A DNA stretch of 64,000 nt from Sphingobium sufflavum (GTDB lineage: Bacteria > Pseudomonadota > Alphaproteobacteria > Sphingomonadales > Sphingomonadaceae): NCBI RefSeq assembly GCF_021403115.1, contig NZ_JAJSSH010000005.1:62001-126000 (forward strand), in the 5' to 3' direction. How positions within the stretch are numbered: position 1 is the stretch's first letter; each line of letters begins with the position of its first letter. Shown here in pieces: positions 3,521 to 15,300 of this stretch. A model generated the notes under the pieces. The model was given only the letters and a program-made list of their open reading frames with translations, was not told the origin of the DNA and ran no database searches. The position numbers were made by a program, and so were the translations under genes.

Positions 3521-4726
3521 ATGCGGCCCATGCGGATCGTCGATGTCTGTGCCTTCTACACACCCGCCGGCGGTGGGGTGAAAACCTATGTCGAGCAAAA
3601 GCTGCGCGCGGCCGAACGCTTCGGGCATGAGGTCATCATCCTCGCCCCCGGCGACACGACGGGCACGGTCAGCAGCAGCCGCCACGGCACGGTGGAGACG
3701 CTGGCCGGACCCCGCTTTCCGCTCGACCGGCGCTATGGCTATTTCAATGACGAGAAGGCCCTGCACGCCCGGCTCGACGCGCTGGCGCCGGATCTGGTCG
3801 AGGCCAGCTCACCATGGGGCAGCGCGGCGATGGTCGCCCGCTGGCAAAGCCCCACGCCCCGCGCCCTCATCATGCACGCCGACCCGCTGTCCGCCTATGC
3901 CTATCGCTGGTTCTCGCCGGTGGCGAGCGAGGCGATGATCGACCGGGGGTTCGACTGGTACTGGCGGCACCTGCGCCGTCTCGACAAGAAATTTGACATC
4001 ATCGTCAGCGCCAGCCCCGGCCTGTCCGGCCGCCTGACCGCGGGCGGCCTGCACCGCGTCGCCACCATTCCCATGGGCGTGACCGGCGGCGTCTTCTCCC
4101 CCACCATGCGTGACACGGGCCTGCGCGAGCGGCTGCTGGAGCGGTGTGAACTGGGGCCGGACGCGCTCCTCCTGCTCGGCGTCGGTCGCCATGCACCGGA
4201 AAAGCGGTGGCCCATGGTCATCGAGGCCGTTACCGCCGCCAGCTACGACCGGCCCATCGGCCTGGTCATCATCGGCGACGGGCGGCATCAGGCGCGCGTG
4301 GTGAAGGCCGTGGCGCACAACCCCCACATCCATCTGATGGCGCCCACCAGCGACCGCGCCATGCTCGCCCGCCTCTACGCCAGCGCCGACGCGCTGGTCC
4401 ATGGGTGCGAGGCAGAGACGTTCGGCATGTGCGCGGCGGAGTCATTGGCCAGCGGTACGCCGATCATCGTTCCCGACTCAGGCGGCTCCTCCGACCAGTG
4501 CGGAGAGGGGATGGGCGAACATTATAAATCGCGTGACGGGGCCTCCATGGCCGATGCGATCCGGCGCTTCTCCGACAATGGCCGGGGCTATTATATGCCC
4601 GCGACAAAGGCCGCCGCCGCGACTGTGCGGACGGAGGAGGATCATTTCCGTTCGCTGTTCGCCGCCTATGAGGAGATATTGTCACGCCCGGCACTGGCCG
4701 AACCGCCCCTCCCTGCCCATGTTTGA
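3521..4726 (+). CDS. Glycosyltransferase family 4 (GT-B)
   Basis: A 401-residue GT-B enzyme. The N-terminal half has RIVDVCAFYTPAGGGVKTYV, the glycine-rich acceptor-side loop. The C-terminal half has LGVGRHAPEKRW (donor-side loop) and CEAETFGMCAAESLASGTP, the E-x7-E motif that holds the nucleotide sugar. It transfers a sugar from an NDP- or GDP-donor to a lipid or glycan acceptor in the cytoplasm. Start may be 3521 or the second ATG at 3530, since neither has a strong Shine-Dalgarno. It ends the four-gene cluster, whose composition suggests assembly and trimming of a surface glycolipid or polysaccharide. Donor and acceptor are unknown. Confidence 0.88.
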   Translation: MRPMRIVDVCAFYTPAGGGVKTYVEQKLRAAERFGHEVIILAPGDTTGTVSSSRHGTVETLAGPRFPLDRRYGYFNDEKALHARLDALAPDLVEASSPWGSAAMVARWQSPTPRALIMHADPLSAYAYRWFSPVASEAMIDRGFDWYWRHLRRLDKKFDIIVSASPGLSGRLTAGGLHRVATIPMGVTGGVFSPTMRDTGLRERLLERCELGPDALLLLGVGRHAPEKRWPMVIEAVTAASYDRPIGLVIIGDGRHQARVVKAVAHNPHIHLMAPTSDRAMLARLYASADALVHGCEAETFGMCAAESLASGTPIIVPDSGGSSDQCGEGMGEHYKSRDGASMADAIRRFSDNGRGYYMPATKAAAATVRTEEDHFRSLFAAYEEILSRPALAEPPLPAHV

Positions 4727-4796
4727 TATGATGCCTGATATGCCGCCTGATCCGGGGCCTGACATCCCCGCCAAACCGTGACCAAGGAATAGCGCC

Positions 4797-5324
4797 ATGC
4801 GTATCCTCCCTGCCGCCCTTCTGCCCCTTGCCGCCCTTGTCGCGCTCAGCGGCTGCGAGAAGGCACCGCTCTATGTCGATCAGGCGGTCGTCCGCCTCTC
4901 GCCCAACGCGGAATCGCCGTCCGCCGGTTACTTCACCGTCCATGCAGGCGCCGACCCCGTCACCCTGCGCGCCGTGACGTCGGAAGCCGCCGTGCGCGTC
5001 GAGATGCATGACAGCGTCGTGAAAAACGGGCTGATGACCATGCAGCAGATCGACCATGTCGATATTCCCGCCAAGGGCGTGTTGCGGTTCGAGCCGGGCG
5101 GTCGCCACCTGATGCTGTGGCAGGTCGATCCCTCAGTGGCACAAAGCGGCAAGGTGACGCTGACCCTGCTCTTCTCCAACGGCGACCGCATATTGGTGGA
5201 CGCCGCCGTGCAGAAAACCGGCGAAGCCGCGCCCGCCCCGGCTTCTGCCCATTCGAACGGCATGCAGGGTCATGACATGATGAAAGACCATGACATGGCC
5301 AATATGGGCAATATGGCCCACTGA
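4797..5324 (+). CDS. PCu(A)C-type copper chaperone lipoprotein
   Basis: A 175-residue protein with a lipoprotein signal ending in the lipobox LSGC (Cys about residue 20), preceded by AAGGAA as ribosome binding site. The mature part carries the PCu(A)C copper signature: VRVEMHDSVVKNGLMTMQ and GGRHLMLW, giving the H(M)-x10-M ... H-x-M ligand set. Family members bind Cu(I) in the periplasm and deliver it to the CuA site of cytochrome oxidase. The C-terminal tail has a run of Met/His pairs (HDMMKDHDMANMGNMAH), a likely extra copper-collecting segment. It stands alone between the glycosyltransferase and a convergent aminotransferase. Confidence 0.9.
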   Translation: MRILPAALLPLAALVALSGCEKAPLYVDQAVVRLSPNAESPSAGYFTVHAGADPVTLRAVTSEAAVRVEMHDSVVKNGLMTMQQIDHVDIPAKGVLRFEPGGRHLMLWQVDPSVAQSGKVTLTLLFSNGDRILVDAAVQKTGEAAPAPASAHSNGMQGHDMMKDHDMANMGNMAH

Positions 5325-13204: not shown

Positions 13205-13225
13205 TTGGTTTAAGGGGTGGGAATA

Positions 13226-13510
13226 ATGATCCGGTCGGAACTGGTTCAAAAGCTTGCGCAGGAAAATCCCGATCTGTCGTTACCGACAATCGACAAGCTG
13301 GTGGACCTTGTCTTCAAATCCATAGTCGATCGACTCGCGTCCGGAGGACGTGTCGAACTGCGCGGTTTCGGCGCCTTCACGACACGTGCGCGCGATGCCC
13401 GCATCGGCCGCAATCCGCGCACCGGCGACGAGGTTTCCGTCCCCGCCAAGCGCGTGCCGCATTTCAAGCCCGGCAAGGAAATGCGCGAACGCCTCAACGC
13501 CGACAGTTGA
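13226..13510 (+). CDS. ihfB: Integration host factor, beta subunit
   Basis: A 94-residue HU/IHF-family DNA-bending protein: [17 protein letters not shown], then [20 protein letters not shown] and [20 protein letters not shown], with the conserved Pro that intercalates in the minor groove. The beta-chain N-terminus MIRSEL and [12 protein letters not shown] favour IhfB over HU. ATG 13226 has AAGGGG 9 nt upstream; a GTG at 13217 overlaps that site and is unlikely. It follows rpsA as in many proteobacteria. Confidence 0.94.
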
Positions 13511-13599: not shown

Positions 13600-13931
13600 G
13601 CGGGCGTGGCGAAATCGGTAGACGCAACGGACTTGAAAGACGCCAACTAACGAGTGCGCGCGCGGAAACGCGCGATGTAGAACTGCTCAAATTCGGGGAA
13701 ACCTTTGGCATGGCAATCCCGAGCCAAGCCCGGCGTCGTTTCGATGCCGGGAAGGTGTAGAGACTAGACGGGCAGCGCCTAAATCTGCGGGTTATCCTGC
13801 GGACAGGGCGAAGGGATAGTCCAGACCACGAACATGCCGGGATGCAAATCCGGCATGGCGGCGAAAGCCGTAGCGGTAAGAAAATCCGTCGGGCTTTGCC
13901 CGTGGGGGTTCAAGTCCCCCCGCCCGCACCA
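13600..13931 (+). tRNA. tRNA-Leu (anticodon UAA), interrupted by a group I intron
   Basis: The exons are 13600-13634 and 13881-13931, giving an 86-nt tRNA with encoded CCA. The acceptor stem is GCGGGCG/CGCCCGC. The spliced anticodon arm is ACGGA-CTTAAAA-TCCGT, anticodon TAA. The long variable arm GGGC-TTT-GCCC marks a class II tRNA, and the T arm is GGGGG-TTCAAGT-CCCCC. The interruption falls after U34, between the first and second anticodon bases, the same position as the classic cyanobacterial and plastid tRNA-Leu(UAA) intron. As the sole visible UUA decoder here it must be spliced to function. Ordinary tRNA scanners that expect a continuous gene could miss it. Confidence 0.93.
13635..13880 (+). 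ncRNA. Group I self-splicing intron in tRNA-Leu(UAA), 246 nt
   Basis: P1 forms between the 5' splice site ACUU|G and CGAGU at 13651-13655, with the required U-G wobble at the cut. A GAAA-capped stem of CGCGCG repeats follows (P2). The conserved core elements are in order: AAATTCGGGGAAACC (P, about 13689-13703), GGCAATCCCGAGCCAAGCC (Q, 13712-13730), GTGTAGAGACTAGACGG (R, about 13755-13771) and AAGGGATAGTCC (S, 13811-13822); ACTA in R pairs with TAGT in S to make P7. P9 is ATGCCGG/CCGGCAT. The intron ends in G (13880), as group I introns must. The P/Q/R wording resembles the cyanobacterial subgroup IC3 intron. No homing endonuclease frame is present. Confidence 0.92.
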
Positions 13932-14202
13932 TTTCCCGGACGAGCCGGGGCAGTTCCGCCGGACGCAGCGCTGCCCTGGCTATCCGGGGAGAGGGCCAAA
14001 TCTTCCTGGCGCTGGCCATGCCGACAATCGGCGTCGCCAATAACCAGCGCCCCAGTCGCACCGGGACCGAGAGAACGCAACCATGCGCCCCGTCCCTTCG
14101 CACCCTATCCCTGATGGAGAGAGCCGACCGGCCCGCACAGACAAGGCGGACCGATCATGCCATGCCACCTCCCACGGATTGAACCGCGATGATGATGTTC
14201 CG

Positions 14203-15300
14203 ATGCCCCGCCCTGTTCCGCTGATCCCGTCGCTGGGCCGCCACGTCACCGCGCGCACCGTGGACGAGGTGGAATGTGCGGTGTCCGTCCTGCTCGCCAT
14301 TCTCGTCGCGCATCTGCTGGGCGCCAGCCATATCAGCTGGGCTGCCTATGCCGGCTATATGGTCATGCGCGGCCATGTGATGGACACATTGTCGCGCGGC
14401 ATGCTGCGGATCAGCGGCACGTTGACCGGTGGGCTTCTGGCGCTCGCGCTCGCGCCCCTGCTCGTCGCCTCCATGCCCTTTGCCACGCTCGCGCTGTTCG
14501 TCGTGGGCGCGGGCAGCCTCTACGCGACATTGACGGCGCGGCGGGCCTATGGCTGGCTCTTCCTTGGCCTGACCTTCGCCATGGTGGCGCTCGACAAGAT
14601 GGAGCATCCGGAGGTCGCCTTCGATGCCTTCGTCCAGACCCGGCTGGTGGAAACCATGGCGGGCACTTTTGCCTGTATGGCGGTCAGCCTCCTCTCCGCC
14701 ATCACTCTGCGCCGTATCTGGCCTGCGCCCCGTGCGCCCAGCGAGCCATGGCTGGGCTGGCATGCCGACGCCTTTGCACTGGCGGTGCAGGGCGGTCTGG
14801 GGCTGGTCCTCCTCACGCTGATCGGCACATGGCTGTCTCTGCCCGCCCTCGCCCAGAGTGCGATCACCATCATGGCGGTGGTGCTGGTGCCCCTGAACCG
14901 CAATGGCGACCGCCGCGCGACGCCGGTGCGGGCGCGCATCCGCCACCGTTTCATCGGGTGCATCGCCGGGGCCATCGTGTCCGCCCCCATATTGGTCTTC
15001 GCCGCCGGGTCTCCCACCATCTTGATCCTCGGCACTGTCATCGGCGTAGTGCTGGGCCGCCATCTGGAGAATAGCGATCATCCGATGCGCTATGCGGGCA
15101 TGCAGTTTGCGCTGGCGATCCTCGTGATCCTCGTTCCCGACAGCTATGCCGATGCCGCGCTGGAACCGGGGCTGGAGCGGCTGCTGGGCATCGTCATCGG
15201 CATGGCGCTCCTGGAGCCGGTGATGCTGACATGGAACCTGTTCGCCCGGCGCGGCGGCAGCGCACAGGTTGCGGGTGGCGACCGGCAGAGCGACATCTGA
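14203..15300 (+). CDS. FUSC-family inner-membrane protein
   Basis: A 365-residue protein with two blocks of hydrophobic helices (about residues 25-145 and 195-330), the layout of the FUSC/aromatic-acid-exporter-like family (YccS, AaeB). The first helix block begins VDEVECAVSVLLAILVAHLL, and the second includes ITIMAVVLVPLNRNGDRR then a basic segment IRHRFIGCIAGA, as in the duplicated half of FUSC proteins. They are thought to export organic acids or similar solutes. The start is uncertain: ATG 14203 gives a typical length, while ATG 14083 has GAGAGA upstream but adds 40 polar residues of unlikely coding character. Single gene, probably its own promoter. Confidence 0.75.
   Translation: MPRPVPLIPSLGRHVTARTVDEVECAVSVLLAILVAHLLGASHISWAAYAGYMVMRGHVMDTLSRGMLRISGTLTGGLLALALAPLLVASMPFATLALFVVGAGSLYATLTARRAYGWLFLGLTFAMVALDKMEHPEVAFDAFVQTRLVETMAGTFACMAVSLLSAITLRRIWPAPRAPSEPWLGWHADAFALAVQGGLGLVLLTLIGTWLSLPALAQSAITIMAVVLVPLNRNGDRRATPVRARIRHRFIGCIAGAIVSAPILVFAAGSPTILILGTVIGVVLGRHLENSDHPMRYAGMQFALAILVILVPDSYADAALEPGLERLLGIVIGMALLEPVMLTWNLFARRGGSAQVAGGDRQSDI

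Follow-up and report, generated by a model that had tools for sequence, protein, structure and literature searches.

A group I intron divides the tRNA-Leu(UAA) gene of Sphingobium sufflavum, a probable replacement gene with integrase-linked relatives

Organization of the split tRNA-Leu(UAA) gene

The stretch of Sphingobium sufflavum DNA analysed here (64,000 nt; hereafter, the window) contains a tRNA-Leu(UAA) gene that is split by a group I intron at position 34/35 of the tRNA, an identification we regard as virtually certain. The whole gene spans 332 nt (13600-13931, forward strand) and encodes a mature tRNA of 86 nt. Its 5' exon (13600-13634) ends with CTT at U34, as located by ARAGORN with its intron option and by alignment with five congeners. 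It is followed by an intron of 246 nt (13635-13880) and by the 3' exon (13881-13931; ARAGORN with the intron option), which runs from A35 to the encoded CCA. A first-pass annotation of the same DNA had described a group I intron of 246 nt that separates U34 from A35. Its coordinates proved exact in the sequence and in ARAGORN with introns allowed, and Rfam model RF00028 (Intron_gpI) matches there. In default mode, ARAGORN made no call over 13600-13931; with introns allowed it reported tRNA-Leu(taa) with a 246-nt intron, and the exons joined without the intron formed a normal cloverleaf. The covariance search with RF00028 scored the window intron at 47.6 bits (E = 8.8e-11 for the genome). Since this is slightly below the curated cut-off of 50 bits, a scan at the Rfam gathering threshold misses it; scores in two congeners (L002 and L003) were 50.6 and 50.7 bits. 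The earlier suspicion that annotation would easily pass over this gene was thus well founded, as both default ARAGORN and the gathering threshold miss it, and default tRNA annotation can overlook an essential tRNA gene.

The intron displays the hallmarks of group I, namely a P3-P7 core, a U.G pair at the 5' splice site and a terminal G. P1 (13631-13655) pairs exon ACTT (13631-13634) with guide GAGT (13652-13655) and sets U34 in a wobble with G at the 5' splice site. P3 (13683-13775) is formed by CTGCTC (13683-13688) and GGGCAG (13770-13775), and P7, the guanosine-binding helix (13762-13821), by GACTA (13762-13766) and TAGTC (13817-13821). P8 (13776-13810) joins CGCC (13776-13779) to GGCG (13807-13810) and carries an extension hairpin; P9 (13833-13840/13850-13857) and the GAAA hairpin P9b (13858-13862/13867-13871) complete the structure at 13833-13871. 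All of these elements are on the forward strand.

Pairing was followed across 118 tRNA-Leu(UAA) introns, a set from which L149, L153, L185, L224, L226 and all non-Leu rows were left out. With the helices drawn on the window sequence, which favours the window, and with P6 as drawn having one base in common with P4, 80-100% of cells were paired from P1 to P9b: 100% in P3, P6, P7 and P8, 99.8% in P1, 92% in P9b and 80% in P9, the weakest helix. When partners were shifted by one column as a control, 20-67% of cells paired. Compensatory pairs were numerous in P2 (6/6), P6a (9/10), P8 (3/4), the P8 extension (8/8), P9 (8/8) and P9b (5/5). Few were found in P3 (1/6), P4 (1/7), P7 (1/5), P1 (0/4) and P6 (0/3), helices that are nearly invariant. 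The U-G of P1, the terminal G, the P7 pairing and the core, all read from the sequence on the first pass, are present in the window, and P1, P3 and P7 are kept in its relatives.

The only UAA tRNA detected in the genome

The window genome (4.43 Mb) is assembled in 37 contigs. The window lies on contig 33, and the tRNA is 75 kb from the nearest contig end. All 43 tRNA matches of the genome were typed; the remaining tRNA-Leu anticodons were CAA, UAG, CAG and GAG. A second intact tRNA-Leu(UAA), which had been named at the outset as the finding that would make this gene a dead copy, was sought among the 43 typed matches and not found. Since tRNA-Ile(GAU) and tRNA-Ala(UGC) are missing from the tRNA list of this 37-contig assembly, some repeats must be unassembled. 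Self-splicing of the intron, which is predicted from its structure, must be needed for the reading of UUA. UUA is rare (one of 380 leucine codons in ten window genes, chosen by eye), as might suit a gene whose intron no longer splices while another tRNA serves UUA. However, no other UAA tRNA was present among those detected and the core and exon pairings are intact, so that a dead copy is barely credible.

Probable replacement of the resident gene at the ihfB locus

A gene for an ihfB-like DNA-binding protein (13217-13510, forward strand; PF00216) lies to the left of the split tRNA and is the conserved neighbour that marks the native tRNA-Leu(UAA) locus. In all 29 Sphingobium loci that were fetched and typed, an intronless tRNA-Leu(UAA) sits downstream of ihfB, as the split gene does in the window. 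The mature tRNA of the window is 79.3% identical to 28 of these 29 intronless congeners and 83.0% identical to the other. In BLAST alignments the value was 83% for those intronless genes; in most other genomes the best match without interruption reached 78-83%, and in G450, which was not typed, it was 76% over part of the gene. Identity was 95-98% to six other intron-bearing genomes of the genus, 96.5% to an integrase-linked cassette in Sphingomonadales (L152), 93% to a gammaproteobacterium (L162) and 91.9% to Sphingobium cupriresistens (L096). Since the locus is the same but all 29 intronless genes are only 79-83% identical, the whole gene would have been replaced; comparison of the sequences makes it very probable that the resident gene was exchanged as a unit and was not inherited vertically with an intron added.

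The left flank of the window tRNA is native. To the right, the 1.4 kb downstream of the tRNA, beginning with 13932-14082, matched none of 28 native downstream flanks. A FUSC-type transporter gene (14083-15300, forward strand; PF13515), with no match in the native loci fetched, stands in place of the native right neighbour. That neighbour, seen in L240 and L251, is a CPA2-type antiporter (named from its sequence); in the window genome the antiporter is on another contig (G000:C5:42269), and a native 3' half of the tRNA was sought beside it and not found. Matches to the 28 native flanks were likewise lacking downstream of all six intron-bearing loci without an integrative element (the window, G025, G005, G031, G032 and G468).

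The resident tRNA might instead have gained the intron alone, by homing or reverse splicing, or have descended vertically, with nothing else moved, and a locus and left flank identical to those of the intronless gene would fit such a history. However, the exons differ by 17-21% from the 29 intronless congeners and by 2-5% from the six intron-bearing genomes, the right flank is foreign, and the intron, at 246 nt, is too short to encode a homing endonuclease. We regard this course of events as improbable. The choice between vertical and lateral origin, which the first-pass annotation had left to further work, is thus answered by exon identities and flanks in favour of lateral origin, through whole-gene replacement.

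Occurrence of the intron

Taken by itself, the intron is unremarkable and belongs to a familiar type. A 22-nt core pattern was found in at least 119 stretches (at least 120 cores) of named genomes, by their titles mostly Alphaproteobacteria and Acidobacteria. ARAGORN alone was tried for typing these introns and rejected, as it misplaced intron ends and gave 'Ser', 'Phe' and 'Stop' calls; the search that replaced it required the stems, a 7-nt loop, a U before the intron and a G after it. By these strict tRNA rules, which miss loci cut by contig ends, 89 of the 120 cores listed were in tRNA-Leu(UAA) at 34/35. The number rises to 91 with L055 (low score) and L124 (labelled Pro by the strict search, Leu(UAA) by eye). 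The other cores listed comprised 15 in tRNA-Arg(CCU) at 36/37, one in tRNA-Thr and 13 that were cut by contig ends or unresolved. In the class sample, 49 of 385 genomes matched our tRNA-plus-intron model at 75 bits or more, a threshold of our own (uninterrupted tRNAs, with matches of ~100 bases, score up to 59).

An intron-bearing copy is present in 8 of the 61 Sphingobium genomes. G461 has a divergent one, with exons 68.5% identical to those of the window, beside an intact native gene. At locus L277 of that genome (G461:C104:1-9245; tRNA at 4680-4990), the adjoining frames resemble conjugation proteins by eye. Segment 13776-13871 of the window (P8-P9) also gave a sub-threshold match to LOOT RNA (RF03000; 31.1 bits against a cut-off of 46.4), and LOOT RNA possibly corresponds to the 3' portion of group I introns; searches of genomes with RF03000 gave no match, even in the controls.

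Islands that split the native tRNA gene

In the congener G004, the native tRNA-Leu(UAA), which has no intron, is interrupted in its anticodon loop by an island of 24 kb and is not rebuilt. Positions 1-42 of the tRNA are at C73:52114-52155 and positions 27-86 at C73:28118-28177; joined, the halves make an intact 86-nt tRNA-Leu(UAA). The island encodes MobA/MobL, a TraG-type protein and a second integrase, and its downstream flank matches the native flank in 21 of 28 congeners. At its ihfB end is a 415-residue tyrosine recombinase that matches PF00589 weakly (20 bits; cut-off 27) and in which the recombinase motifs are conserved by eye, and a complete intron-bearing tRNA-Leu(UAA) is located 52 bp beyond this integrase. 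Since no other intact tRNA-Leu(UAA) was found among the matches listed for G004 (the match on C71 is a CAA gene), the bacterium seems dependent on the island's copy. A native tRNA that is split and unrebuilt, together with a cognate tRNA on the element, is the mark of tRNA-dependent integration; all of this is seen in G004 and not in the window.

A similar arrangement occurs in another alphaproteobacterium, G069, where the ends are 27.5 kb apart and, joined, give an 87-nt tRNA-Leu(UAA). After its left junction comes a tRNA-like 3' half in which ARAGORN calls no tRNA. Second island ends were sought by pattern in 60 kb of G160 and, in G444, over the 17 kb that remain before the contig ends, and none were found.

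An integrase-tRNA cassette in relatives

Full-length relatives of the G004 integrase are 48-85% identical to it. At 27 of 143 loci, an integrase relative is encoded immediately upstream of the intron-bearing tRNA; it has 300 residues or more at 21 of them and is partial at six. This count requires the same strand and leaves out L149 and L153, which are on the same contigs as L002 and L003. An earlier count of 28 of 145 had used the G004 integrase as sole query and had included L148, where the integrase pieces are on the opposite strand. All 27 linked loci are Leu(UAA). No same-strand upstream integrase was present at the 17 Arg/Thr intron loci, at nine viral loci, or within ~1.5 kb at the 29 intronless Sphingobium loci, and an HMM of the integrases (E = 1e-3) added no further same-strand case. 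Among cellular Leu loci with at least 1.3 kb of upstream sequence, 75 of 97 are without such an integrase.

Nineteen cellular loci combine a full integrase with 1.3 kb or more of upstream sequence, and 18 of them show the order [tRNA-Leu 5' half]-[integrase]-[intron-bearing tRNA]; at L177 the integrase is broken and a 25-nt piece of a 5' half is present. In these 18, an uninterrupted 5' half through CTTAAAA was recognized by pattern in 14 and by eye in four (L110, L133, L135 and L172). At all 14 pattern-found loci the similarity to the tRNA stops no more than 3 nt from CTTAAAA, so that the gene was not rebuilt there. Reduced integrase pieces adjoin the tRNA at L085, L162 and L227, each with more than 2 kb of upstream sequence, as expected of elements that decayed around a now-essential tRNA. 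On the Bradyrhizobium plasmid of L227 (NZ_CP094524.1; L227:3519-4290), trb conjugation genes adjoin the intron-bearing tRNA-Leu(UAA) and the reduced integrase just upstream of it. Upstream of the integrase at L110 and at the L172/L288 locus, a tRNA-like 3' half, in which ARAGORN finds no tRNA, follows the core; it may be what is left of a restoring attachment site, which would place these elements midway between those that restore the tRNA and those that replace it.

We also searched from the integrase side: a model built from 12 integrases gave matches with E-values of at most 1e-40 in 19 of 385 class genomes, in 10 of 398 phylum genomes (the samples overlap) and in three viral contigs. Seven loci of this integrase family have a tRNA-Leu(UAA)-like 5' half (L286, L287, L288, L290, L296 and L321) or a piece of one (L307). 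An intron-bearing tRNA follows downstream at six of them (in L290, at 2.05 kb, it is the gene of L174; L296 is cut by a contig end), and none was present in the available downstream sequence of L321. None of the seven showed an intronless replacement. Only three of them (L290, L296 and L321) are additions, since L286-L288 had gone into the model and L307 is the same locus as L177. Neither set is unbiased: the intron core was the route to most integrase-linked loci, and L286-L288 belong to the search model. More distant integrase relatives mostly adjoin an intact tRNA, often tRNA-Met, and at L297, L305, L319 and L322 an uninterrupted tRNA lies downstream of a related integrase. At L311/L319 the interrupted tRNA-Leu(CAA) has core GGACTCAAAA and the downstream gene has GGATTCAAAA, differing at position 32; there, the mismatch may take the place of the intron.

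Related introns in phages, viral contigs and plasmids

In Gordonia phage Daredevil (NC_048021.1), the integrase gene adjoins a tRNA-Lys(UUU) that an intron of the same family interrupts (L285:3379-3690). The split tRNA scores 145.8 bits with our tRNA-plus-intron model and is not reported by RF00028. An uninterrupted anticodon-arm core lies between the integrase and the split tRNA, and the 3' exon matches the tRNA-Lys of Fionnbharth-type phages at 87.5% identity across 40 nt; the accessible text of PMC10865867 reports that tRNA-Lys as the replacement. That text describes Daredevil as integrating at tRNA-Lys-TTT without rebuilding it, as encoding no tRNA of its own and as forming clear plaques. 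The clear plaques stay unaccounted for by the split tRNA; the intron may not splice in the host, or lysogeny may fail otherwise.

Introns of this lineage are also found on viral contigs and in large phages, Agrobacterium phage Atu_ph07 among them, within tRNA-Leu(UAA) (L193, L207, L208, L213, L221, L325 and L326) or tRNA-Lys(UUU) (L199, L214, L216 and L220, three of the four identical). A motif scan of nine viral contigs with intron-bearing tRNAs revealed no recombinase-like frame, and a cyanobacterial-type pattern run on viral contigs had no match. In pelagiphage HTVC120P (L323:3001-3078) and an uncultured marine phage (L324:3001-3074), the intron core is between two capsid-annotated pieces. 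The phage introns known in 2014 were all in protein genes, according to the accessible part of a review of that year (PMC3984707).

An unannotated intron-split tRNA-Leu(UAA) was observed on plasmid NC_004464.2 (L223:5001-5299) and in L224-L226. It adjoins an aac(3)-II-type resistance gene in all four records and an AAA ATPase gene, which we take to be tmrB-like, in three of the four. The window gene matches 1278 of 72,556 plasmid records (1249 over at least 80%), four of the top rows being a different, Bradyrhizobium form; the plasmid form matches 635 of 5426 E. coli genomes. A query modelled on the Anabaena intron had no match among plasmids. The plasmid split tRNA may point to the source of the module. 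Among the papers available to the search, none contained both tmrB and 'group I intron'.

Intron tree and origin of the window gene

A tree of 129 introns was built by a quick method; 60 of its 125 inner branches are open and the long phage rows are unsure, so only starred clades were used. Left out of it are L149, L153, L185, L214, L220, L224, L225 and L226, which share contigs with other rows or nearly duplicate them, as well as L124, weak tRNA calls and every Arg locus except seven; the tree contains no cyanobacterial rows. Integrase-linked rows are scattered through the tree, with at least 20 changes of state. The Sphingobium introns form two supported sets: the window with G032 and G468 (SH-aLRT 97), and G004 with three element-less relatives (SH-aLRT 96). 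Element-borne and domesticated copies are joined in the second set; for the set with the window, a link to an element would hold by analogy.

No integrase of this family was found in the window (G004 integrase query, E = 1e-3) or in its genome (integrase model, E = 1e-40), and a half-tRNA was sought in the window genome and not found; the direct sisters of the window gene, G032 and G468, are also without an integrase. Since the window has no integrase, descent of its gene from an element cassette is something we infer, and we consider it probable. The gene might also have arrived with no element ever at the site, through homologous recombination with the chromosome of some other bacterium that bears the intron, or with a tRNA gene of a plasmid or phage. 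This would account for the lack of an integrase remnant, and donors are at hand in the intron-bearing tRNA-Leu(UAA) genes of plasmids, phages and viral contigs. However, the non-native right flank and the native right neighbour on another contig are as expected for one remaining insertion end, and the element-linked G004 groups with element-less copies at 96% SH-aLRT. We think delivery by such recombination unlikely.

A proposed role for the intron in shielding the attachment core

The overall explanation we favour, to which we assign a probability of about 60%, is that the window gene descends from an element-borne replacement tRNA whose intron shields the attachment core. The target of the element's tyrosine integrase would be a core of ~10-12 bp (GGACTTAAAA) within the anticodon arm of the host's tRNA-Leu(UAA), and recombination there would leave the gene unrebuilt, while a complete tRNA-Leu(UAA), supplied by the element just downstream of the integrase, would keep the cell alive. 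The intron between U34 and A35 would cut GGACTTAAAA in the DNA into GGACTT and AAAA, so that the integrase could not use the replacement, and splicing would restore the replacement tRNA at the level of RNA. Without the intron, the replacement would bear the same core and could itself become a target. In the window, the integrase would then have been lost, perhaps through recombination between the tRNA 5' half and the 5' exon of the replacement, to leave a domesticated gene.

Whether the intron shields the replacement gene from integration is a proposal to which we give slightly less than even odds, with both splicing and integrase activity predicted from sequence. The intron could be a passenger, incidental from the donor tRNA of elements that replace a tRNA, with no shielding role. 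Uninterrupted tRNAs lie downstream of related integrases, and published phages use uninterrupted replacements, as far as the accessible text goes (PMC10865867); therefore, the intron is not required for the strategy. Introns of the lineage also occur in tRNA-Arg(CCU), in viral tRNA-Lys and between phage capsid gene pieces, as passengers might. Against this, none of the seven loci of the integrase family that show a 5' half or a piece of one had an intronless replacement, the intron lies inside the shared core in all 14 pattern-found loci, and Daredevil repeats the same plan with a different tRNA and an actinobacterial host. We consider a passenger intron less likely than not. Shielding of the attachment core by the intron, if correct here, may extend further: we tentatively suggest that group I introns in bacterial anticodon loops are attachment-site shields and that many orphan chromosomal tRNA introns are leftovers of elements.

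Relation to known systems and significance

Proteobacterial tRNA introns are known from tRNA-Ile of Azoarcus, tRNA-Arg(CCU) of Agrobacterium and tRNA-Leu(UAA) of a gammaproteobacterium. Like the window intron, they are small group I introns that lie in the anticodon loop and lack an endonuclease. The cyanobacterial trnL intron presumably has the same 34/35 site and a similar IC3-like core. The accessible text of PMC4033280 lists tRNA introns in alpha- and betaproteobacteria, and no integrative-element link is seen there, unlike the case of the relatives of the window gene. As far as the accessible texts go (PMC4476775, PMC4033280), the tRNA is also common to the window intron and the cyanobacterial/plastid trnL(UAA) group I intron; the window intron differs in its occurrence in Sphingobium, at a locus with a probable history of integrase-linked gene replacement.

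The closest likeness in strategy is to tRNA-dependent lysogeny, in which, in the accessible text, the element brings a cognate tRNA (Guerrero-Bustamante and Hatfull, 2024; PMC10865867). Both involve a tyrosine integrase and a short core in the anticodon region of a host tRNA that is left unrebuilt. However, the replacement here bears a group I intron that cuts the core, the hosts are alphaproteobacteria and acidobacteria, and the G004 island has mobilisation genes; in the accessible text of PMC10865867, the word 'intron' appears solely in a reference title. The tRNA-restoring genomic islands of Islander (PMC4383910, accessible text) share the anticodon-centred attachment in a tRNA gene, but restore their target from a carried fragment, whereas a whole replacement gene is carried here. 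For archaeal tRNA introns, mobile elements have been proposed as the means of movement, as here (PMC8371274, accessible text); those introns differ from the group I introns considered here, and the same text reports integration also into intron-containing tRNA genes. None of the titles or abstract openings listed in our literature search connects tRNA-Leu introns to integrases.

It is an old question why bacterial group I introns occupy tRNA anticodon loops and how they spread without endonucleases. An intron tied to an integrase that targets the same loop would have both a testable function, in that the site would be hidden in DNA while the tRNA is kept, and a vehicle. If this is true, tRNA-dependent lysogeny would extend beyond actinobacteriophages, and the reading of phage Daredevil could change.
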